This document shows positions 11,833 through 52,925 of a stretch of DNA of 64,000 nucleotides, one piece after another. The notes under the pieces were generated by a model. That model worked only from the letters and a program-made list of their open reading frames with translations, had not been told where the DNA came from and did not search any database. Source of the DNA: Dysidea avara (lineage: Eukaryota > Porifera > Demospongiae > Dictyoceratida > Dysideidae). Position 1 is the first letter of the stretch; each line of letters opens with the position of its first letter. The position numbers were made by a program, and so were the translations under genes. The stretch is from assembly GCF_963678975.1 (NCBI RefSeq), contig NC_089281.1:25090765-25154764 (forward strand). Reading direction: 5' to 3'.

Positions 11833-14392
11833 TTTTATGCATGTTTGTATAATGAATGTTTACAGTGTTATCTATTGTTGATGTGTACTAACCACAGGTG
11901 AATTCCCTCAACATGTATACATGTGGTACTGATGACAGTGCCCATGTGCTCTTGATCTCAAGTTGTACAGTTATGAAGTATATACTACACTATCCATGGC
12001 TTCATTTATTGTATGATAGGCACTGGGGCAAGCTTACAGGAAAATTTACAGACTTTAAAAGCTCCGGTAGCTGGATTGTTAATGATAAATGTGACTGCAC
12101 TATTAGAGTATATTTTGTTACAAGCATTGAGCAATAGGGGCCTCCCCCATTTCCACTGCCTATGAAGTCATATGACATCTTGTCATACATGCATGTATGT
12201 GACATCATGATGTTAGGAGTTTTGTACTGTTGATACTATAATTATATTGTACTGAGAAAGTCAATGCAACTTTCTCCATTGTTCACTTGTGGTTATTAAG
12301 ATGTGGTTGAAGAACTTATAGCTGTGGGCTCCTATATCTATGTATTATACACACATACATATTGCCATTATATCGGTAAATTAACCATTGGATACAGCTT
12401 GCTACTAAAGCTGGCCACAAATATGGCCCCTCTCCTTTATCCCCGAAATAGTGTCCCATTAACACACCTTCTTACCTTATTATGTTTGTGTTATAAGCGG
12501 TGGTTAATCCACAATATGAGCTAAAGGAATCAAATCTCAATGAGTTGCATGCAATCATATACCTCACCACAGCCACACATGCCTGTAAACTGAAGTAATT
12601 TTGTATCATGCAATTTTATTATATTGTGTAACTTTGTGTTATAGCTAAAGAAGGCTTTTTGGCTTTTTGACAAAAAGGTTTTTGCAACAGGAAAAGAATG
12701 TACCTTATATTGAATAACAATAATTGTTTTATAACTATAGTTACATTCATCTATAGCACTGAGTGGTAGCTCACGAATCCTCTGCTATTGTTATTACTGC
12801 TTTACAGTGTCGAGCATGCACTGAGGGTCTACAGCAACTTGTGCTGCAGCCTTTGAGTTACCTAACCTAATTACTTAATATGCATGGTAACATGAAACAG
12901 AAAAGTGGGCCAAATAAAGGAAAAATATCCCTCCGACACCAGGATTTGAACTGCAGGCCACCCCGACAATGTCTAGTCAGGCGCCACGCTCAGTCTCCTC
13001 CAGAAGGGATGGATTTTAACATAAATATTTATTGTTGTTGCTGCTTTACAGTGTCCAGTACTGAACTGATTGCAAACACTAGGTATAATCGAGTATGTGT
13101 GAAATTGTTGGAAAAGCAATAAAGTACTCTAATAGAGCAACCAACTGTCCAATGATAAAGTCCAATAGAACACTGAATCATTTTACCATTTGTTCAGAAT
13201 GGAATTCCAATTTCTGAGCTTTACTGTAACATAATAGCAGTAAATAAAACATTGCAATAACACAACTATCACATTACTAAATGTCAAGTAAACCATAAAT
13301 AATTAACTCTATTAAACAGGAACCAATTGGCTGTAAATAGGGGTGCAAATGATCATGACTGCTGTATATCAAGTCATGCAGATGGTTGAGCAGGTTGACC
13401 AGTAATTTATGTAAAATATGCAATGGCAGGGGCAAATCTTTGTGGAGGAGCTAGCCATACTCTTTTGATTGAAATACTCGTCATGGAGTCCAAAATCAAT
13501 TTATATCTCATGAGTATATGTATTATAGTTAGTGGTAAGACCAGGCACCTTAGGGTCATTGATGCATCTATGGCATAAGTAATATAATGGAGGGTAGCTA
13601 GCTATACATAGCTCTTGATGGTTAGTTATGCCATATAAAATCACTGTATCTGTGAGACTTATCCAAAATCCTGGTATGTATATATGATATATTTCACAAG
13701 TCATGAAAGAAAATTAAGGGTCTTATAGCCTATAGTCTGTGAGTTCACCTGAGCCCTAGTTTCTTGTTAATAATTCTTGTTACAAGGACCAGCTGCTCAA
13801 ACATTTAGTAGGCTTTAAAAATATCCCATGCATTCAGGCACGCCAAACATGTTTACAACATGAAAACATGCTTGTTCCAGTACAAAACCATTGGGAGTGA
13901 ACACATGTTCACCTTTTTGATATTACCAAGAGTAAATTCCATTATTTACTCTTGATATTACTATATTTGGCAGGGGCTCAGGTGATCGTGTACCGACTAT
14001 AGTACAAAGCCCTAAAATACACCATGCAGAGGTATGTAACTGGAGGTATACCGGAAGAGAGAGAACCACCATGAGTAGTGATGAAAAATGTAGCTATAGC
14101 TATCAATCTGGATTATATTGTCAGATTGACTGCTCTATTGGAGTATGTCTATCTCGCGAAATTTCTATATAGTAAATTTTGGTCCTGTTGGTACTTTGGA
14201 GGTATTTGTGTACTCTTTTGTGGTAAAAATAAATTTAAAAAATACGCAAAATAAATAAAGTGCTCCGTTCCGTGCGCCGTTTTAAAGTCCTCATTCCGTT
14301 CCAGTTCTATGCATAGAGTAGACCCTAGCATAGATAATATACGCGTATTATCTATGACCCTAGTAAGCCACGTGAATCTCTTCGTGCACAGC
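11833..14392. other. Intergenic, with a tRNA-like block and motif copies
   Basis: Holds the 3' UTR of the zinc-finger gene and the region upstream of the CCCH exon. At about 12935-13000, minus strand, a tRNA-like stretch ends in AGTTCAAATCCTGG (a B-box-like sequence), preceded by GGCGCCTGACTAGACA. It does not fold as a full tRNA and is probably SINE debris. Copies of the TACTCTAATAGAGCA motif lie near 12095 (inverted), 13124 and 14128 (inverted). Nothing else recognised. Confidence 0.45.
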
Positions 14393-21361: not shown

Positions 21362-24300
21362 AAACAGCTTGGCGTTTCATCAAAGCAAGCCCTCCTGTAC
21401 CAACAGCTGTGCTAGAGACAATAATCCGGACATGTAACAATGAGGCCTCATCTCCACATGTGGTCCTACCCAATATCATCAAAATTGCTGAGGAGACGTT
21501 TAGCAGAATGTTATCCTCACAACGCTGTCCTCGAGAGCACTTTGTTCTGATGTTAAAGTTTTATGCCAAGAGCCACTGCAACACTCAGTAAGAAAACTTT
21601 GTTTTCTTTGTCATTTTTGCCTTTCAAATCAAATGTTTGTCAATTCCACATCTCTTTATATTTATTGTTACTTTCTCAGTATCAGTCTGTGAGTAGTTAG
21701 TACATTATTGTCTGTAGTTTACTATTTTTCTTCAAATCTGCAGAGCATTCTCGGTTGCTCAGGAGCTGACCAAATATGGCTATTTGTTGTCAATGGAGTT
21801 GGCAAGGATTTTATTAGGTTGTTACCATCCACCTGCTACTAGGTGAGTATACACAATCATGCAAACCTGTAAGATGTATGTGTATAAATAATGGTTTCTT
21901 TCATGTTTGTTTCTTTCTTCACAGACTTTATGACCTACTTGTGTGGCTGGACAATGCTGGTCTGTTCAATAGGTAATTGTTTAGTAGCTGTTATATAATC
22001 TATTATCAATGCTCTAGTATAACAGTCAAATTTATTGTGTTTTATGAAGTGGTTTTAGTTATCTGACATCAAGTGGATTAGATAATTATAATTCCATGTA
22101 TTTGTCAATTCATAAAATGCCAAGTTTTTTGGAAGTGCAGTTACTTTAAACCACAAACAATGTACAGGATTCTCTTCTCAACTGTTGATAATTTGTCTAG
22201 CATGTTTTCTTTTAGAAATTGTTGATAAAGCCTTGAGTTGGCACTTCATTTTTGTATGTGTATAAGACGGACATTCCCAAAGAGATATGCCATTTCTGGC
22301 ACCTACACTCTCATATTTAGTTGTTAAATTGCCTGTACAGCGCAACAGTTTACATGTTCAAAACCTGTTCTATCCTTATTGTGACTTAGTATCATAGGCG
22401 GTGGAGACGGGGGGCCATGGCCCCCCCACTTATATGGGACACTGTTTGCAAGAAAAGATTGAGATACTCTAATAGAACAGTCATGATCTGGATACTCTAA
22501 CTCTAATAGAGCAGTCACAGTATTCAGAGAAGCAGTGTAGCAAGCTACTTAGCTATGTATGTGTAGTTATAAATAATTGGTGGAGAGCAGCTATTGGCTG
22601 TGACCTTTTTTTTTTTTTTTTTTTGGTCTTCAACTTACAGCTGGCCTGGCCCCCCTACTCTTTGGTGTGCTCCACCACCCCTGCTTAGTATAAAGTAATC
22701 CCATGAAGCTTGCATACCTGAAAATTTTATACAGATCCTATACATGCAGCCTTCATTTCTCTCACAATGGTTGCTTGTAGCATATTGCTCAGACATGCAT
22801 ACAGACACTTTTCAAAACCAATTTCAGTAACCAGGCATACCCTTTGGCCAGCTGTGAGGGTGTACCTGGTTGACAAGTTTTTATTACCAGTAAGTTTTGC
22901 TCTCAGTATATGGTTGTTCTCCTTTCTGAAAAAGTGCCCTGAATAATAAATGGTACATGTCTCTCTCTTGGTAGTAAACAAAAACACTTGGGAACTTTAA
23001 TAGTGCTTTTATTTGTTGTTGTTGTGGTGTATGTGTAGTTTATACAATCGACTACCTCCATGCTTCACCATGGATACTCCAGTGCCAGAAGTTTGCAGTT
23101 ATCTGGAGATGTGTGCCCTTCATCAAGTGAAGATCTATCATTATAATACCATTACTCTAGTGAAGTGAGTGAATTATTCTGTGTGGCTAAAAAATAATGA
23201 AGAAAATAAAACTGGAAACTTTGGAATGGTTGAGACATGTGGTCTGCCCTGCCTGGTGGGAAGTTCCTCTAAAAAAATGTTACATTTGGATTAGGGCTGG
23301 GACAAATATTGAAATTTACATTCAAACATTTGCTAATAAAATGTTCGAACATTCGAAGCTTCAGTGTTAGCTTTCAAGTTACAGGTTTTCTTGTATTTAT
23401 GCACATCCTTCTTAAATTTTATCTTTCTAAGCCTATTTAATAAGTTTGTAAGCATTCAGAAAGTGCATAGCAGCAGTACTGAATGATGTGATCAATCGAT
23501 TGCAAATGGGCGTGTCTGCTATACTGCAATCATGCAAGCATAGGTAAACACCAAGTAATGGCTAAAAATGTTTTCCATGCATTATATATCACTTTATAAG
23601 GTGTTTTAAGGCTACAACTATGGTACCAAGCTGAACTACGATGTCTTTAAAGTGGGCGTGGCACACAAAGATTGATTGCGAAGAGACAAACATGGATCAT
23701 GCAAGAGGAATAAGCAGCTGCAATAAAGATAACGACATTTATTTGTAATTCTTTTGTAGACTATGAGTGCATTATGAAGCTTCGAAGGATACTTTATAAT
23801 TCAAAGTTTACTTAACCTTTGAACCCACGAAACGTTTGAAGCTTTGTTATGGATAAAGATTATGGATAAAGAAGTGTGGAGTTATGTATATGTGAAAATT
23901 CCATTTTCATTCTTTGTGTAAGTAACAGCGTGTCAGCTTCTTGGGGCATGCAACAAACAAGCATTTGTCATGATATATACCACTTGCACACTTCACTTCA
24001 AAGCAAGCTTCAAAGTGAAGGCGTACTGCTATAGTGCTCAGAAATGCACCAACCAGAGATAGAGGTGGTATATATATCAGAAATATTTGCTTTAGAGTGT
24101 ATTTTTGACATACTCTCTCTTAGTGCATCATTTCCAATGCTTGTGCTTACAGGTAGTGTTGCACCAATATCCAAATTAGCCAATTATCCCGATAACCGAT
24201 ATTAAGCAACAAAATTAGCCAATACCGATAACCGATCCGATATACACTAATAACACTAACACTCAACCTCATCATTATTAAATGACTCATATTAGTGACA

Positions 24301-27300
24301 TAACCATTGATATCTAGGCTACAATCAAGTTAGATGTATACCACAAGTAAAAGTTACTCATGGTAAACAGGTTTTAAGTACATTTTACTACTGCTATACA
24401 GCTGAGACAAGTGGCTGGTACTACATAGAAACCTAAAACCTCAGTTTACTGTTGGGCATGGCCTAAAACCTGACAGTTTATTATGGGCATGGCTTGTAGT
24501 CACTGCTAAACCATCAACACATAACTTAATCAAAATGCCAAATAACTGATGTCTAGCCTCCCCCACATAATTATACTACACAGCACAGTGGAGATTAACA
24601 TTGGCTTTGATTTAATCAAAACTGATTAATCAGCTAGTAACCAATATCAGCTGATACCAATTAAGTGAACCGATTATTGGTGCAACACTACTTACAGGGA
24701 ACAAAGCACTTTTGCCCATAGTGTATCTGTTAAATGTAGAACGGTTTTATAAAACACTCCATTAGGGAGGGCCCTGCAATCAACTATAAAATGGTCTGCA
24801 GCAAATTATAGAACCACATATTTTTGGCACGAGAATGTGCTAATTGGAATACTTAAGTACTTGATTTGTCTTGCTCTTGTTTGTGTATGTATGGAGTGCA
24901 GTAGTTATGTATTTTTCATTTTTTAAATATTTATACCTTCTTTGTCATGTCTGTGTTGTGCTTTTGCACATCAATATGGTCGTATATGTCCGAGTTTAAC
25001 CTAATTGTATGTGTGTTATTGGACATCTTTATGACGGCTTATTCTCTTATTAGTGTTTTAATATTTCATGTATGATTGGTAGCTTCTTCATGGCACACAC
25101 AAATTGTGAGGCAGTCATTAGAGTTCTGGAATTGTCAGACAATCCTTGTGTGATCTCTCCAGACCAAATGGAGTTCTTCATGTTAAATCATCCACCAGAA
25201 AAACTTGATCATGTCACCAACATTCTAGTCAACATGTTCCCAAATAATGATCTCTGTGTTGCTGTGTCTACTGCAACTTGGAACTACGTTCTAATGAAGT
25301 GCTGTACCCAGCAGCGATCTGCCAAGGCCATGGAGATATTTCATTTTATGTCAAAGTGTTCCAAGGTCATCAGAAAAAAGGTGGGTGAAGCTATTAGTGG
25401 GTGTGGCGTATATTCTGCCAATGCTGCTATGACTAAAACTGTTTAAAGTACTTTGCGTTGGCGAGATCAAAGCGAAAAGAATGCTCTATTTTCCATAACA
25501 CATTCAAGTGTGCTATATTTTCCATTTGCGTCACAATAAAGTACAGTTATGGAAAATAAAGAACAGTTACGCATTGATTGGAAAATAAATACGAAAACAA
25601 GATCACGTGCATAACATTTCTAATCGCCAAAAGTAGCCAAAAAGTTACTATTTGCTTGTATTACTACCACAACTGTACTACATAGATGCTTACCGATTGT
25701 CTGATGGCTGAAAACTGATGCGGTTCGAATTCACGAAACGAACGCTCCAAGCAAGACGACAAGAAAGCACTTTAAACCAGTTAAAGCACCGCTACGCTTG
25801 TGCAATATGAAAATAAAAGCATTCGGGCATGGTCTCGAGCCTAATATAGCACTCGGCTTTGCCTCGTGCTATATTAGTCTCTCGCCCACGCCCTCGTGCT
25901 TTTATTTTTTCCATATTGTACGCGCGGCGGTGCTTTAACTAGTATTTAAGACACATTCCACCAATAAACTTCATACATTGCAATACTTAGCTGTGCATTC
26001 AAATTTAATTGTTTTGAGGAGTGCATTGCTTTAGTAGCAATGACCACCTCATTATTATTATTATTATAGTGCTTGTCAAAGTAATAGCTAAGATCATGAA
26101 GTACATCTTTGGTACTTGACATGATCACTGTAAGGAGGTGGTCTTATTGATGAGGCCATCAAGTGCATGTCATATTAGACTACCACATTATAGTGACCAT
26201 GTCAAATAGGTTCCAACTTCCAAACATAGCTAAGTTATACTTAATGATGTCATTGCCATCTCATGATAGTGATAATGTCAAGTAGGTCCCAAAATCACCT
26301 ATTTATGATTTTTTGTTGTATAGGTGGCCCATTTGATGAAGTGATTTTATTATATAGATAAAAGCTTTCTTGTGTTTATATAATTACAAGTACACAAAAA
26401 AATTTGGAATTTTTATCTAGAGTAGGGACCATAGCATGGGTAGGTAAAAACAGTGGACCCGACCTGCAGAAATCCAACTCTTCTTGGAACTTTTTACACT
26501 TCACAGTATTCTATACTTGTACTAGGTACCTCTGCAAGCAGTCTTGCATGGTCAATCCACTTTTACCCTCCTCGCGGCATCTCGCACGATGTTTACACCA
26601 ATTAGAAATTATAAGCGCCTCTGAAGAAGTGTCTGAAGCTGACTGCATTAATTACAGGTCACTCGCTATTTTCCGCATTGGTTTGCACAATGTTTACTTT
26701 AGTAGCTAGGTGACATAATAGACTAGCATGCTCATTGTGCAGCAGGTGAACAATTACCAGCTAAGTCAAGCTAAGCAAGTTCCAATAGCTCTTCATACGT
26801 CATGATGCATTTGCACAATGTTCCTAAACTACTCTAGTAGCTAGGCGGCATAATAGACTAGTATGCTTACTGTGCAGCAGGCAGTGGCCTATAAATGCAG
26901 TCAGCTTCAGTCACTTTTTCAGAGGCGCTTATAATTTCTAATTGGTGTAAACATCGTGCGAGACGCCACGAGGGGAGAAAAAGTGGATTAGCCATGCAAG
27001 ACTACTTGTAAAGGTACCTAGTACAAGTATAGAATACTGTGAGGTGTATAAAATTCCAAGCAGAGTTGGATTTTCACGGGTCCTTGGTCCGCGGGTCCAC
27101 TGTTTTTACCTACCCCCATAGCACATCGATAAAAAGTACTGAAACAAGTTGGAGTAGTCCATGATATTAAATCACTGTAAAACAATAAGAAGTGTTATAT
27201 CCCTACTGTGCTCAAGATACCATAACGGGAATGCACAGTAGGGATATAACACTTCTTATTGTTTTACAATCATGGACTACTCCAACTTGTTTCAGTACTT

Positions 27301-30300
27301 TTTATCGATATACTATGGTCCCTACTCTAGTTGAAAATTCCAAATTTTTTCGTGTACTTGTTTGTTAACTTTTTTTTGTAAATAATTTTATTATGACTGG
27401 TGAACCCATGCATACCACATCTGAAAAGACACCGCGCACCCAAGCTATATCAATTATCATCTGAAAAGTGAAGTATCCGTTATGCTTCGTTGTCAGCTAT
27501 GTTCAACCCATTACACAGCATTTCGAATCTAGAACTGTTCGAAAAGCACCTCTACAATCCACGTATACCAAAAGAAAGAAATCGTGCTGTGCGCCCTAAT
27601 CATATTAATTATCGTCTGAAAAGTGAAGTATCCATTACACTTCGCTGTAGGCTATGTTCAACCCGTTACACAGCAGTACGAATCAAGAACTGTTTGAAAA
27701 GCACCTCTGCAATCAAAATAGGGACGATGAAAAATACGGACGATTTCTGTTTCGAAGGGAAGCCATCACATGCTCGTGCCAAATCGACACCTTTCCCTCT
27801 CAGCAAAGATGAATGGGACACAAAGGAGGACACTGGTAAGTCCATGAAGAATGCATTGTACGTATTGCGGTATGCCAAAAGGCACCTGTCGGGCCGAAGC
27901 GATGTCAAACAGTGAAAAACTCAAGCCCGTAACCTTAGCCATTATTGAATTACGCTTGTCTGAAGGCATCAGTCAGTCAGTTACTTACTCAGTCAGTAGA
28001 AAATTCCGTTGAATAAAAAAAAAATTAAAATTCCGTAGCAACTTGTTGAAAGCGTTTCGGGTTGATCTGAAAGCTTGTTTGGGCTTAGTTTTACCTCACC
28101 AATACTGCCTCATTGTCGTAAGGGAAAATTGAGGCTGGTTTTTTGGGTGATATTATTTTGTGGGCCACGCCTACTCCTATGTGGTCCCTACTATACAGTT
28201 ACTATCGTACTGTATGATAATTTTGTTTATTCCTCCCTTAGACATACTTGTCCCTGATGGTGTTACATTGTGATCAAAATCATCCCAGTGAAGTCCTGAT
28301 AGTGCTGGAACACCAGATACATCACCATGGTGATGTGTCTAGTGTGCCGAAGATTTGTCAGCTGCTACTGAAGCAACAGTCTTGGGAAACTGTCTGTCAT
28401 ATTGTAATGTGTGTGATCAATGCCAGTCATAAGGTTAGGATAATAACGGTACTTGTATTGTAGGTTATCACTGACAATTTCTAACCATGAATTAACAGTA
28501 CTCTGCCATCATTTAGATTACACTGAAGCTTTCCTACCACTTTAGGACATGGCTTTTTAAAGCTATATCTTTTCACAGCTTCTGTGTTTTCCATGTATAA
28601 TAAATTAGTACACTACATCTGTAGGTAGAGAATAGGAAATTAAGAGTCACCTTCTACAGAACAATGAAGCACAACGATGGAATTTGTTACTGGAAAAGGT
28701 ATGCAATTTTTCTTATATTTCTGTACACATACACACATGCTCACATGCATGCACACACACTATACTATATGCGCACATACTAGGCACACGATGTTCTCTT
28801 TTGTTACAGGCAAGAGAGATTGGTATTGACCTAGATCCAATTGACCTACCAGAGCCACTTCAATTTTCTGATGCTGCAGCTGACAATGCTGCTATAGAGA
28901 ATGTCTTAGCCTCACTCCCAGCTTTTTCACAAAACACTTCACCACCACATTGTGTGAACCAGCAGAATAATGATTACTACTCCCTTGTGAGGGTGAGTTG
29001 CAGTGAACTTTGCTTTGTGACTAAAACAATAGATAAGACCACCTCTTACAGTGACTATGTGTGGGGATGCCATCAATGATTTTGCCAGCAAAATTTTTAG
29101 AAATATAGGCTGGATGTGGTAAAAGCAGTGAGGCATAAAAGATCAACATACTGTAATAGAACAGTCACACACAGTACCATATAGCGGTCTTTGTAGTGTC
29201 CACAAAAGGCTGCATATTAAAATAATAGTGACATAAAATTTAGCGAATAAGGACAACCACTAAATTGAAATCCCGCGTATTATCAACTCTTGTAAAAATT
29301 AGTATCGTGTGTGTGCTGCAACAAGTAGGGACCCGCTGATTATGCTCATAATTTTACCTATTATGCTATGCTGCACTGCTCAAAAATTTACCTATTATGC
29401 TTAAATTTATGCTCAATACTTACCCATTATGCTCAAATTATGCCCAATTATTTATGCCTCAGTTCTCATGCTCTGCTAATAATTTCCAATTTATGGATAA
29501 ATAATAAGTGGCTGAAGCACAAACTTACTTGTCAAAATGCATATCACAGAAAAGATCGATATACTCTAATAGAACAGTCAGCTATGTGATTATTCTATTA
29601 AGAGTTGCTGACTGTTCTATTAGAATATATCGATCTTTCTGTGATAGCTATTTTGATAAGCAAGAATTCACAAATATTCTACCTATTATGCTAGCATTAT
29701 GCTCAATGCTTTCAGACACCTATTATGCTCATAATTATGCTAGCATAATTGGCGGGTCCCTAGCAACAAGTAACAAACAGCTGTGACCTCATAGTTTGTC
29801 GTCGTACACATTGTTCCATTTCTTGCACTTTCTATTTGTCTGAAGATTGTAATGGTACAGACTTGACTTCACAATTGGTTACGATGATTGCGCGTGAAGA
29901 GGTAGACGCCATAAGGGCTGGGCAACAGATCCTTCTTTTTTGTAAGTAATTGAGAATAGATGTCTGTCTTCAACTGACATGAAGTACCTTGCATAAATTT
30001 TATTTAGATCGCATGATAAATATTTATGACGTCTCAAAAACTGACACGAAATTTTAATTTAGCATTTGTTAAAATTTACTAAATTAAATTCCTCACTACT
30101 AAATCCCACTATACGGTATTAGAATATCAATATACGTAACCAGACTTTACAAAATTGTACATTGCACTACACTACCATACTATTGATTTTGACCCTCAGC
30201 ATTACTTAAACTGGTTTTAAAGGCTGGTATTAAAAGCTGTGTGGTGTTGCAAGCTTGAATGGCAATTTCTGGTTTTGTAAGGGACCTGGCTTGACAAGAA

Positions 30301-33104
30301 ATCAGTGTTATACTGGTGATATATTTAGCTAAACCTTGTTCTGTGTTGATTTTGCTGTATATTATCTACTAAGGAGCCAGCTAGCACAGCCCTGTAATCC
30401 CTTGCCTGGACTTCAATCGTGCATGGTCTACCTTTATTTTGAAGTCTATCTCTTGCCCACCCCTCCACCCCCACCCCTTTTTGAGCACTCATGATACTAC
30501 TTCGTTTGTCCACCTTGTCAGATTTTTGGTCTTATTTGATGGGAAACTCTGAGCAGTTACAAGTACTAAAAGTGGTCTTAAAGATAAGGCCACTCCAAAT
30601 AAATTTTCTGTTTCCCGTCCTGGACTCAGGCATATTTGCATGCGGGCAGGCGGTCCATTTCCATTATTTCATTATAAGATTGACAGATTTTCAAGCCATT
30701 ATTTGCCCTGGCACAACTATAAAAAGTTGCATAAAAGCATGCTTAAGCTTTGCATCTCTTTTTATGGTGCAAAAAATAACACTAACCTGAATTTGTGCCA
30801 ACTTGATAGCACTGTTGTCACATGAGCTGACACTCTTACAAGATAGCTTTTACTGAGCCTGTAAAGAATGCAAGAATAACCGGAAAATAATGGAAGAATA
30901 TGGAATAATAGAGTATTCAGAGCTGACAGTAATCAGATGCGGACGGTGGACGGGAAACAGAGAATTTATTTGGAGTGGCCTAATGCCTTTATTTGTATAC
31001 GTTTCATATATACGCATGCTCACTACCCTTGGCAACTCTTGAATTCTTTAAAACCATGTTTATCTTGAAACTTCTAATGTGTGATTTGGATTGTTTTTCT
31101 AAAATTCAGTTTATGTCACTGCTCTTATAGAACTATGAATTAGTGCTGCTAGTTTACTCACTAAGTGTGGCTGGTGAGAAGCCTAAGGACTATGTAATCT
31201 CAGTCATATACATTACAGAGATTATCATTACTTATCAACAAACTGATTGGAGACCATACCCATAGGGTTCTCTTCTTAGCCAACCCAGGTTTCAGTCTCC
31301 CCTTCTGCACCATTGCAAATTTAAAAAGTACGAGTCTCAAAAACTACTGTGGTGGCTTTATTAAAGAGGTCATGCATAAATACAGCTGCACCTCCCTTAA
31401 TAGCCACCTGAGATGGCCAGTCACCTCTGCATAGCAGCCACGTGACTCTGGCTTTTTTTTGTGTGACATAATTTTGCATACTGCATCAAAAAAGTATATA
31501 TCATAATGTGTGAACATGTGCCTTAAAAACAGTTGATGTCAAAAAGTGAAGTGGCCATTATGCTTCAAATTCAGCTATGTCCAGTCCATTACACAGTGTT
31601 ATATATGAAGAACAGCAAAAGTAAACTACCTGGTTTCAAGGTTTCCTCCCATGTATTAATTGGCACTGGGGGGGAAAGTTAGTTATCACCCAGTGATAGC
31701 CTTGGTAATAGTTATGACTCAGCTTGGCACTTTTATCATCTCATGCACTGCATGGGATATAAATATACTTTCTCAATCATTCTTGGTAACATTCCCTTTA
31801 TATAGCACTATTGTCATCTTTCAGTGATATTTCTCAACACTGTTTAGTGTAGTAGTCTTTCTGTATGTTGCTCCAAAACTCACCTATAAAACTAAGTTCC
31901 TTATCTAATTAATATCATGCCATAGGTGGCAGAAGGGGGGGGGGGGGGGGGGGGGGGGGGGTTGAAGCTGCCCCCAGAATAATATCTCACCAAAATTATC
32001 CTTTTGGGAGTGGGGCTGAAAATAGAATGCTCAAATACACTAATAGAGGAGTCAAAACTTCATAAAAACATGTTCCTAAAAGTAGTCTTAAAATTGCCTA
32101 CAGTGGGAATTGAACTGCTGACCTCTTACTTTAAAAGTTGCTTACCACTGGACCAAGCATTTCCAGGTGTCTAATGGCTGTTTTGTATTGCTTATAAATG
32201 TAGCTATGTTTATTAACCCTGTAGTCAACAGCAAAAACTTTTCCAAAGAGGTTTTTATGATCGCAAATAGCCTTTTTGACTAGATGTTTTAGTTGAAAAA
32301 CATTTCAAATTGTACCAAAATATAATTCTGGTGAGTTTTGAGACATCATGAAAGCTCACCTGTTTGCACATATGCAAATTTCAAACAGTACAAGAAGCAC
32401 CTCTGTAATCATTAAAACTCACTACAGAAATTACTGTCAATTCCTATTTTATCTTCAAAATGTGATAGCACAGGAAACCACAGACGTGCTACCCCGATGA
32501 ATCAACACCTATACACTATTGGAGAAAAATGGTACACAAAGTAGGACAAAGGTAAGTCCATTTTAGCTACTGTTATGGGTGAAAAGGCACGTCTCAGACA
32601 TAAGCAACCTTAAGCGTATAACATTATCCATAGTCAATTTGGTAAATTTATTTTGGGTCACTCTCTTGGTGCATATTTGGCCTTGATTATGTTAACCTAA
32701 TCAATCTGCAAAGTTATCATAGAAAGTTTACATTAACTTTTAGATGGGAAAACGCATATTTTTGGTTTTATTTTGTGATCCTTGCTATACAGTGTGTGGT
32801 GGTCAGAAACAAATTGTGTAGTTGGTTTTCATTATGGATGAACAGGCTTGCTAACTAGTCACTTATAAGCAAACTAGTAATTCTTTGCAGATGACTGTAT
32901 TTTGTGTTTGATACCAAGTGTATGTTTATTTATTGTCATATTGAGCCACTTTTGATTACCAACCACACTTAATATAACATCTTTAAACAGGCTGTAGGAC
33001 CAGGTGTCCTACAGACTTTCAGTACTTGTGCTGTAAAGCTTTAATGAATAAAATGTTTTGAGTCATAAGTGTAATTGTACTGTGTGTGTGCGTGTGTGTG
33101 TGTG

Positions 33105-37435: not shown

Positions 37436-37749
37436 CCCTGATTTCATTATACGATCGGCAGCTTTTCAAGCCATTATTTTCCTGGCACAACCATAAAAGC
37501 TGCATACGAAAAGCATGTTTAAGCTTGTTCCTTCCTTTTTAAGTTGCAAAAATAGCACAAATGTGAAGTTTGTGCCGGCTTGATAGCGATGCTGACACGT
37601 GAGTTGACACTTTCAAAACTTTTACTGAGTCTGTCAGTATGCAAGAATAACCGTAAAATAATGAAAGAATACGGAATAATGGAACATTTAGAGCTGACAG
37701 TAACTAGATGCGGGCGGTGTACGGGAAACAGAATTTATTTGGAGTGGCC
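37436..37749. mobile_element. Harbinger-like MITE, left-truncated copy
   Basis: Matches 30665-30980 over its whole length (ATTTCATTATA...GCCATTATTT, CTGGCACAAC, ATGCAAGAATAACCG, CGGGAAACAG, AATTTATTTGGAGTGGCC). The left terminus is missing, replaced by the boundary at 37438. The right end is followed by T, the palindrome at 37751-37834 and a second GAGTGGCCTAA. Confidence 0.85.
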
Positions 37750-37750
37750 T

Positions 37751-37834
37751 TAGTCTCGTGCCCAGCCGGGCTCGCGCTAATGCGCAAACACCGGTGTTTG
37801 CGCATTAGCGCGAGCCCGGCTGGGCACGAGACTA
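37751..37834. mobile_element. Perfect 84-bp palindrome with 9-bp duplication
   Basis: TAGTCTCGTGCCCAGCCGGG begins the left arm and its exact complement ends the right; the two 42-bp arms meet at CACC|GGTG without a spacer or mismatch. GAGTGGCCT flanks both sides (37742-37750, 37835-37843). The duplication includes the end of the MITE before it, so the palindrome was inserted after the MITE. A 9-bp duplication is the habit of Mutator-like transposons. A diverged arm occurs at about 52597-52640. Confidence 0.93.
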
Positions 37835-37859
37835 GAGTGGCCTAAGCACGAGTTGTCAT

Positions 37860-48049: not shown

Positions 48050-50230
48050 CAATTGTGATTTTATTTCTATGTGTCGTAAAACATGTTCTTGAGTGCAAAC
48101 ATAACTTCTTATTTTAAGTGGTGTCAGACTAAAACAAGATTATGGGCTTTCTAAAATTTAGTATGCTTAGTTTACCATAAGTTTAAGCACTTAATTTAAG
48201 CTTTAAAATGTGATTAACATAAGATGATAAGTATGAAAATAAACTTCCATTACCTTATCATTAGAAGTTAGACTCGTTTGTGGAAATATTACTAATTGTT
48301 TTATGTCAACATACATTCTAAAAATTAGAACAACTCATCTAAATGATAGCACAATGACTTATGCCACAAAAGTCTGTGAGACACTGAATCCCATATGCAC
48401 CCCCGTTCTCCACTCTTTGAAAGAGGCCTTGCTATGTCACAGTAGCACTGAGTATATTATTATCTGGGGCATCTCTCCCAACAAGCTTTAATATCTATTG
48501 GGAGATGCATTTAAACAAACGTACATGGCTAGCTTGTCATTTTGGATGGCACTGTCCACACAGCAATGGGTCCACCTATGGGATACAAACCACCCACACA
48601 GGTGCCAACTTTTAAGGATGTCAATGATTAAGTTTGTGATGTGCTCAGTATACTTTAATGCAATGTGAATGTCACTGAATCATTACTGTAAAACTTTAGT
48701 ATAAACTGAAACCCACAATAAACTTAATGCTGCTTGATATAGCTAGGTTTCTTATACATTTTAGTAACAGAGGTTAGTAAGGACAGATGCAAGTACTGTA
48801 AGTTATTATCTCATACCAAAAATACTGTTAAATATTACATGTCTTAACATTCCTGTGGTTACATGCATTCCATAGTGTGATCAAATGGACACCCAGGGGC
48901 ATAATGGGGACACATAACAACAGACCAAATCCAAGAATGCCCTACTAGAAATAAGTATACTGTTACTAAAAAATAGAATTATTTATTAGGCCAGATACTC
49001 TAATTTTCAGTGCATTGCTCTTATTATTAGTATATACCACTTTGACACCTCAGATCAAAGGATACCACAGGGTTATATATCACATATTTCCCTAACCACA
49101 GGGCGATATCATGATACAGCCCTGACCACAACTGCCTTTGATACTGAGGCAGCTACAAAGCATCAGTTCCCTTTGATTATTTATATAGAGCTGCTTCAAG
49201 TTTTGCATTGTGGGTTTGAATTAGAGCTGCTTAAAGTTTTGCATTGTGGGTTTGAGTTAAACATGTTGGTTTAGTTAGGGGCATTGTTGTGAAGCAAAAA
49301 GAATTGAGTGAGTCAGCATTGCATAGTTCAGTTACTAAGCATCACTAAATAATCATTTTTGCAATGCGGATTGTTTTTCTACACAGTACATTTCAACTAC
49401 ATGAAAGATGACTCAAACATTCCCAACCTATGTGTCTAAGTGTTTATTTTAGCACCTTAGGTTACTTTATTCATCCACAAAGTGGTTATTTGGTTTAAAA
49501 TGGTATCACTACAACCAGTGAAACCCATGCACAATCCAGAGGAGGTTGGAAGCGTGCATGTGAGCCCAATGGTTTTGTATTGAAAAGCATACTGGGCCTC
49601 CTTGGGTGCTGAAATACCTCCTGATTGATGAAATATGACAAATAAATGGCATTGGCACAATAAGCCCCCCCCCCCCCCCCCATTAAGCCCCACCGAGTAA
49701 GTCAGTTTTTTACACTTGGGCTACATATAAATCACGCGAGATCTCGTGCCAGGCCACAGATGCAGTAAATGTCTTTGTTGACGAGCTAGAAAGATAAAGA
49801 GAGGAGTCCCACTCGAGAAATCAGTATGAATAAACACCCAAGAAATCATCCTATGCAGCGTACTTCACTAGGACTGTAGTGGCATGCGCCCTAGTCAGGG
49901 ATTACACGAAACTAGAAATATGAAGAAAGCTTCCAGATGAACGATAGCAACAATGTGCCACCACCAAGAAGGTTAAAAATGAGTATCACAGCCACCATTC
50001 AAAGTTGCTGCACCCCTTCAATGCTATACCCCACCTTACAATCTCAAAAATGCAATTAACACGAAAAATGTTGTAGCGCTTATTACGCTTCCAACCTCCT
50101 CTGTGCACAATCATTCCTTTTTGTGCCCACAATTTAAATCCACAATTGATGTTTGCAAACCTCTGTATAAAAGTAATGTGGTAAATGCAGGTTTGTCTTC
50201 CTTCACCTATTAGGTGAGCATACCAGAGTG
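48050..50230. other. Intergenic, nothing recognised
   Basis: No gene supported. A run of 17 C lies at 49665-49681. The glycine-rich frame over it on the minus strand is an artefact of that run. A 40-bp direct repeat (GAGCTGCTTMAAGTTTTGCATTGTGGGTTTGA) occurs at about 49190 and 49224. Confidence 0.4.
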
Positions 50231-50589: not shown

Positions 50590-51660
<1,071 letters not shown>

Positions 51661-52082: not shown

Positions 52083-52596
52083 TGTATGTAGCAATACATT
52101 ATTGGCAACATCACCGAAGATGAAAATTATTCAGCTATGTAGCCAATATACAGCACAGTATCAACATCAATATAGAAGTCACTGGTAGCTAAATACGGTT
52201 GATCAGTGATGCAGTGATGTGGCAATGGTACAGTGATAGGAGATACACAATACAGGAGATACACAATACTGTATGCAAGCCAATAAAGGGAGACAGCCAA
52301 GCCATAAGCCAGGTGAAGGCAAAATGTACAATACAAGTAAGCGATATAAGAAAATATTAAAACATACCACGTTTTGTAAAGGCTTTACAGTACATTTACA
52401 ATACTAGAGGCAGCCAAGCCAACCAGAAGCCTACTGAGCAAGCCAGGTGCCGGAAGCGCGGCCGGAAGTATAAAATGTAAGTAAACAATACAAACATACC
52501 GCTATTAATCTTGTTCCTGGTCTTGTGCAGCTGGCATGGTGAACTTCCTTCGTGTTGGTGTTGGGCGTGGCCGCCTTAATTACCTGCCTTTACGTT

Positions 52597-52925
52597 AGTC
52601 TCGTGCCCAGCCTGGCCCACGCTAATGTGCAAACACCGTCTGGTGACAATGCTCGACTGAGTTTCTTGGGCCCGGAAGTGTGCTCCAGCCAAAATATATT
52701 GGCTGGCAATTGACTCACAGTATTCTTCAGAGGAGTAGTTTAGCAAGCTTATAAAGAAGGAGATATGGTTGGTGAGGGACAGCTATTGTCACATTGTCAG
52801 CATGTAATGACCTTTTTTTTGGTCTTCAACTTACAGCTTGGATGAAGTTGTGATTCAGAATGGAAACTTCCTTGCCCTTGGGGCCCCACTTTAACTCTTT
52901 GCCCTGGGCCCCTTAATTCCTCTGG
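52597..52925. mobile_element. Mixed transposon debris
   Basis: TAGTCTCGTGCCCAGCCTGG at 52597 is a diverged arm of the palindrome at 37751. It is followed by the GACCTTTTTTTTGGTCTTCAACTTACAGC block known from 22600 and 38580, and by CTCTGGGCAGCCCTGG at about 52920, a hAT-like terminus. No duplication found. Confidence 0.5.

Follow-up and report, generated by a model that had tools for sequence, protein, structure and literature searches.

A perfect 84-bp palindrome as a probable excision scar of a MITE family with long terminal inverted repeats

The Drosophila P element is cleaved by its transposase at a position 17 nt from the element edge on the 5' strand (PMC7776569, PMC10983969), and its target site duplication (TSD) is 8 bp long (PMC7776569). 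Excision junctions from Rad51-deficient flies, as tabulated in PMC2895639 (Table 1), consist of the 8-bp TSD and up to 17 nt of each element end, joined through short overlaps or filler; one short-overlap junction recurred 14 times in independent events, and 20 isolates were joined via overlaps of 5-10 nt, with the element ends lost wholly or almost so. TSDs of 8-10 bp together with long terminal inverted repeats (TIRs) serve as the criterion for Mutator-like elements in the account of Muta1, a MULE of Aedes aegypti (PMC5225508). According to the excision assays presented there, Muta1 was excised precisely in yeast in ~90% of cases from donors with TSDs and left TIR remnants of up to 13 bp from donors without them; the cut at or just outside the TIR and the small remnants are described for Muta1 and not shown for all MULEs. 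Tetris of Drosophila virilis, a nonautonomous element of the Foldback type, is portrayed with long TIRs and TSDs of 8-10 bp (PMC4079207).

Here, we describe a natural set of short palindromes that share their ends with a MITE family and that, with a probability of roughly 0.7, are scars that arose by end joining after a transposase had excised the element with one of its cuts ~42-44 nt inside the TIR. Like the tabulated Drosophila P footprints, they are composed of TSD, outer TIR, inverted outer TIR and TSD, each thus keeping part of both TIR ends, and they show short overlaps, short fillers, variable junctions and one arm that is often near full length (PMC2895639). Unlike those footprints, their arms reach ~44 nt instead of 17 and their TSD is 9 bp instead of 8, and they stem from one natural genome, whereas the Drosophila data come from Rad51-deficient flies and include long-overlap joins; the class of 5-10 nt overlaps is absent from the short copies analyzed here, which were not gathered for it. 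Long TIRs, TSDs of 8-9 bp and many internally altered relatives are shared with Muta1, yet the remnants reach 44 nt as compared to at most 13 bp, and the Muta1 excision reported from donors with TSDs was mostly precise (PMC5225508). The likeness to Tetris extends to long TIRs, TSD length and the nonautonomous state, but the Tetris TIRs as depicted hold tandem repeats of ~220 bp that are longer than a whole TIR here (PMC4079207), and unlike in Foldback-type elements the palindromes would be derivatives and not the element. The 9-bp TSD and the TIRs of ~134 bp of the family fall within the ranges of the Mutator-like definition, and TSD length alone would suit Mutator-like elements, to which the family may or may not belong.

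The window, i.e., the whole stretch of 64 kb that was analyzed (G000:C10:25090765-25154764), is part of a 550.8-Mb assembly of 108 contigs. As originally predicted, positions 37751-37834 form a perfect 84-bp palindrome of 42 + 42 nt, with arms that are 100% complementary and a spacer of 0; the runner-up perfect palindrome arm in the window measures 11 nt and lies within a TA run. The predicted 9-bp target duplication is likewise present, with GAGTGGCCT directly on both flanks (Table 1). The 17-base end of the palindrome has three matches in the window, two of which are its own arms, as compared to 0.06 on average after shuffling. On the left side, the flank (37476-37750) can be aligned with 30701-30981, where a relative of the older MITE lacks the palindrome, in agreement with the earlier view that the insertion lies over an older MITE's end. 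This relative runs on into GGAGTGGCCTAA, matching the window sequence 3' of the palindrome, which supports the 9-bp duplication; judging from the alignment, it is what the unoccupied form of the site would look like. The diverged arm that had been placed at 52597 does belong to the family, but starts at 52596 and has four mismatches in 42 nt. This remnant runs on into the inner TIR (extent past the first 42 nt by eye), and its right end was not found within the 64-kb window.

The 301 bases around the palindrome gave no match to plasmids, and an Rfam search of the window had no match. Prokaryotic or viral relatives were rejected, as seven GTDB and two IMG/VR matches to the 17-mer are due to chance: only 1-9 of the following 25 bases agree and the opposite end is absent within 1 kb. 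Neither the 17-mer nor six related strings occurred in the literature searched.

Table 1. Coordinates of the palindrome, its site and other repeat features in the 64-kb window
Feature	Positions	Strand	Remark
Left TSD copy GAGTGGCCT, 9 bp	37742..37750	+	putative unoccupied relative of the site at 30972-30983
Left arm	37751..37792	+	terminal 42-43 nt of the left TIR in the family
Right arm	37793..37834	-	terminal 42-43 nt of the right TIR in the family
Right arm junction	37793..37834	-	joined to left arm, 2-nt overlap (CG), filler 0
Right TSD copy GAGTGGCCT, 9 bp	37835..37843	+	direct flank of palindrome
Older MITE, with the parent element presumably inserted in its end	37476..37750	+	aligned part only, versus 30701-30981
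One-ended long-form remnant	52596..52707	+	TIR start, 4 mismatches in first 42 nt
TIR element	24154-24690		8-bp duplication CTTACAGG, TAG...CTA ends
TIR element	29326-29762		8-bp duplication GCAACAAG, TAG...CTA ends
TIR element	49537-50103		9-bp duplication TGCACAATC

The host genome holds a MITE family, mostly 468-540 bp in length, that has the same ends as the palindrome (termini TAG...CTA, end sequence TAGTCTCGTGCCC), 9-bp TSDs and, in its long form, TIRs of ~134 bp. Searching the genome with the 84-mer yielded at least 42 places (84 rows over both strands; 40 of 340 candidates scored), which are represented by 39 fetched stretches and the window. The expectation of a family with 9-bp duplications was borne out by this search, as further copies with 9-bp TSDs lie at unrelated sites. 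Short palindromic copies, many with a 9-bp TSD, make up 35 of the 39 fetched stretches (L014-L048; ends truncated in L037 and L042, L048 composite), and L049-L052 are longer copies of 317, 518, 529 and 529 bp with the same ends and 9-bp TSDs (one mismatch in L052). Because the long copies share these ends and have TIRs of ~134 bp, the 84-mer corresponds to the two outermost 42-43 nt of the TIR joined to each other. The parent family is short, has TIRs and TSDs, occurs in many similar copies and, judged from the short frames seen, is without a transposase. It is ordinary as a MITE family and unusual as a natural set of probable palindromic excision scars, with an apparent stagger longer than described for P. 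While the parent of ~530 bp is like other MITEs, we read the 84-bp palindrome as a remnant and not as a MITE copy. In L035, L036 and L046 the same base change stands at mirrored positions in both arms (by eye), which might reflect homogenisation between the arms or a change that both parent TIRs already had.

The exact 17-base end TAGTCTCGTGCCCAGCC occurs 116 times per strand in the genome, and the same pattern read backwards has 0 occurrences. Of the 232 places so obtained, the leading 100, which run from contig C1 into part of C7, comprise 73 elements, 63 of which could be sized; the ten unsized ones are eight without a right end found (searched within ~5.5 kb, or 0.8 kb for later ones), the divergent 125-bp L077, and L064. 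Two size classes are apparent among the 63: 28 copies measure 46-79 bp and 29 measure 453-540 bp, with only two at 86-300 bp (L057, 109 bp; L056, 190 bp) and four longer. The upper class consists of 28 MITE-like copies of 468-540 bp and the filler copy L055 of 453 bp. Sampling by one end should not favour any internal length, so the size gap was not made by the search.

In the process that we propose, a MITE of ~530 bp with long TIRs would have inserted at the window site with a 9-bp TSD, and a transposase would subsequently have excised it by staggered cuts, one strand at the element edge and the other ~42-44 nt inside each TIR. Each donor end would be left with up to ~44 nt of TIR as a 3' overhang, and end joining via 1-2 nt of matching bases could then fuse the overhangs to give TSD, outer TIR, inverted outer TIR and TSD. 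As such overhangs would derive from inverted repeats, a near-perfect palindrome without interior is the expected product. It is the short-overlap anatomy, as in P scars, combined with arms of up to 44 nt that suggests a scar and a stagger of ~42-44 nt; the latter is inferred from arm lengths in the sequence and would be more than twice the 17 nt of Drosophila P. The more specific proposal that a cut-and-paste transposase with a 9-bp TSD cuts the 5' strand ~42-44 nt inside the TIR, with arm length reporting the cut position, is tentative, and we hold it at slightly below even odds; the same applies to its corollary that the genome thereby keeps the palindromes as a readable archive of excision. 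No stagger of 42-44 nt was found in print in a limited literature search that was not a full review.

Arms were scored in 45 of 55 rows, all of at most 100 bp. The ten rows that were dropped had an indel near the end (L017), truncated ends (L037, L042), an arm called at <20 nt (L085, L093, L096) or a length >100 bp (L049, L055, L056, L057). The 21 rows that are known from the 84-mer search alone or are the window copy are biased toward arms near 42 nt, whereas the 24 end-sampled rows are free of this length bias. The longer arm measures 40-44 nt in 31 of the 45 copies (12 of the 24 end-sampled ones) and exceeds 44 nt in none of the 45 (0/24); the shorter arm ranges from 20 to 43 nt. The junctions of the 45 rows fall into 37 distinct forms, and 20 of the rows carry filler of 1-11 nt. 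Among the 25 filler-free junctions, 19 overlap by at least 1 nt, as compared to 43% expected for random junctions with arms of 20-44 nt. Four copies have the junction 34/41, three have 41/44, another three have 32/41, and one duplicated pair has 23/31. L100 and L101 are duplicates of one scar, as are L022 and L027, so not all of the 45 rows are independent events; that L022 and L027 are two scars at one site was rejected on account of their common junction (by eye). L028 and L059 (74 and 65 bp) lie at one site and could be one scar with a later 9-bp deletion. The limit of 44 nt coincides with the centre of a 12-bp inverted repeat, CACCGTCTGGTG (by eye), and DNA structure could therefore set the limit; the folding energy of this region is unexceptional (z -1.5 and -1.3).

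A fixed stagger would lead one to expect such a ceiling, outside of which lie L057, with arms 50/50 and 9 nt of filler, and L056, with arms 105/105. These two copies bear on the alternative that the interior was deleted in place without a staggered cut, by gap repair that was aborted after excision or because a long inverted repeat was broken and trimmed, which we regard as unlikely. It would account equally well for an origin in place; L056 resembles a deletion of this type, located at an inner palindrome, and as an internal deletion differs in kind from the short copies, L057 might be another, and L049 (TSD 9/9), in which a 42-nt right arm is joined to a left part of far greater length, has the appearance of an element partly resynthesized from one of its ends. 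However, breakpoints distributed uniformly over 18-134 nt would leave both arms at ≤44 nt in only 5% of cases, and this was observed in 24 of 24 end-sampled short copies (≤100 bp; L056 and L057 lie outside this class). The 105-nt arms of L056 (G000:C3:23406952-23407141) fold onto each other at the inner palindrome, and its TSD matches at 9/9 positions; it has a flank in common with L098, for the other side of which no match was found. In L055, arms of 40 + 42 nt surround 371 bp (TSD 9/9), and this interior has no resemblance to the MITE above the shuffled level.

A direct comparison of full and scar states is offered by one duplicated site. L045 is a 76-bp palindrome and L069 a full 528-bp element, and both have the TSD TATTTAGCC in common. 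Their flanks are identical beside the junction (60/60 and 59/59), agree at 220/229 and 220/223 positions over 230 bp, and lose similarity on the left side beyond ~260 bp. A third state is seen in L032, a paralogue that shares this TSD but is more diverged; it holds a 73-bp palindrome, and its flanks match those of L045 at 52/60 and 53/56 positions. The occurrence of the full element and of palindromes with the same TSD in paralogues indicates that palindromes form in place, and the occurrence of one insertion both as a full element and as a scar is also what P-type footprints lead one to expect. Going by these alignments, the simplest reading would be that the full element was lost in two of the duplicates, with a different junction left in each. 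No second same-site case is clean; L066 and L067 both carry the full element.

The original prediction of an inserted element made of its termini only is difficult to reconcile with this site, where one duplicate has a full 528-bp MITE at the insertion for which another has a palindrome, or with 45 short copies that have 37 junction forms; the palindrome is probably not an element made of termini alone, and the repair product that had been named as an alternative is supported. That the palindromes are mobile miniature elements of two TIR ends, which insert with a 9-bp TSD, is in our view quite improbable. TSDs at unrelated sites and the junctions shared by three or four copies would be in accordance with mobility, but identical junctions recur independently in the tabulated Drosophila P excisions as well (14 isolates, PMC2895639), and both the diversity of junctions and the two states of one insertion speak against mobile palindromes. 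The scar reading itself has to accommodate L056 and L057 above the proposed limit, recurrent junctions that mobile palindromes would also give, a TSD of 9 bp versus 7-8 bp in P elements, a TSD match of 8/9 or 9/9 in just 25 of 45 short copies, a single clean same-site case, and a family to which no transposase is tied. Perfect palindromes are difficult to assemble, but an assembly or sequencing artefact is extremely improbable, given that at least 14 contigs carry short copies that differ in junction and in flanks, that many of these copies have TSDs, and that they lie at unrelated sites of the assembly.

CA termini and 7-bp TSDs are typical of the P superfamily. With its 9-bp TSD and TAG...CTA ends, the family shows neither CA termini nor a TSD of 7-8 bp; by analogy, it appears to work like P excision yet fails the P hallmarks of TSD length and CA ends. 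A search for PF21787, which covers the RNase H portion of P-type transposases, gave at least 151 matches in the host genome as compared to none in 14 control genomes, and P-type elements are thus abundant in the host. Several sets of PF21787 matches have identical scores and frame lengths at several places (e.g., L111-L121), which suggests recent activity. The original prediction had called for a search for a full-length element with a transposase; a long MITE with the same ends does exist, but no transposase could be tied to the family. None of the 150 listed PF21787 matches lies inside any of the 99 listed family copies. The closest listed match (C2:54345517) is 8.2 kb beyond L053, a complete copy of 1,764 bp, and the L014 site is 37 kb away from another (C14:7543879). 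As for L049, its 138-bp inner stretch is single-copy in the genome, and a 26-aa reading from this stretch had no Pfam match. L053, L075 and L088 are copies of 1,638-2,086 bp whose open frames were inspected by eye; at this level, the first two contain other repeat-like sequence. In eight 3.4-kb P-type loci (L111-L118), the family's 20-base end is absent at <7 mismatches. Three longer loci with P-type matches were rejected as the family's autonomous partner since its ends are absent from them, the best match having 6 mismatches in 20: in L119, the ends measure 31 bp, start with CATAGATATTC (CA termini) and are accompanied by a 7-bp TSD, L120 has TIRs starting TCATAGATCG without an exact TSD, and L121 has no inverted repeat >13 nt.

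If the scar reading is true, natural genomes record transposase cut sites, the stagger can be read from the arm lengths of scars with no need for biochemistry, and the scar junctions reveal by which pathway the break was repaired. At 42-44 nt, the stagger would then be far beyond the 17 nt that is termed unusually long in a review of the P element (PMC7776569). Tiny perfect palindromes with TSDs, which are easily filed as minimal MITEs, would on this reading be capable of arising by excision, a point of relevance to annotation and to inferring transposon activity.

A 28-bp hairpin at 14329-14356 (CATAGATAATATAC/GCGTATTATCTATG) lies between the two copies of a 7-bp duplication, ACCCTAG, and begins CATAGATA, like the ends of the P-type element L119. 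Possibly, this hairpin is a P-type scar with the ordinary short stagger, at a distance of 23 kb from the long one. At 13927-13954, 400 bp from it, lies another 28-bp hairpin, CAAGAG...CTCTTG, with the 7-bp duplication ATATTAC. A scan of 285,586 bases found a TSD at 10 of 131 short hairpins, as compared to 0.75 in a displaced-flank control; nine of the ten belong to the palindrome family and the tenth is the hairpin at 13927-13954. The scan used an AT filter and a loop limit, and the hairpin at 14329-14356 is absent from its list. It is possible that the TSD-flanked 28-bp hairpins are due to chance. The window also carries genes of the protein kinase, mitochondrial carrier and C2H2 zinc-finger types, which mark the host as a eukaryote and most likely as an animal, and, at 51202-51507, an AGGC tandem array of 76.5 copies with 100% match that is open in several frames.
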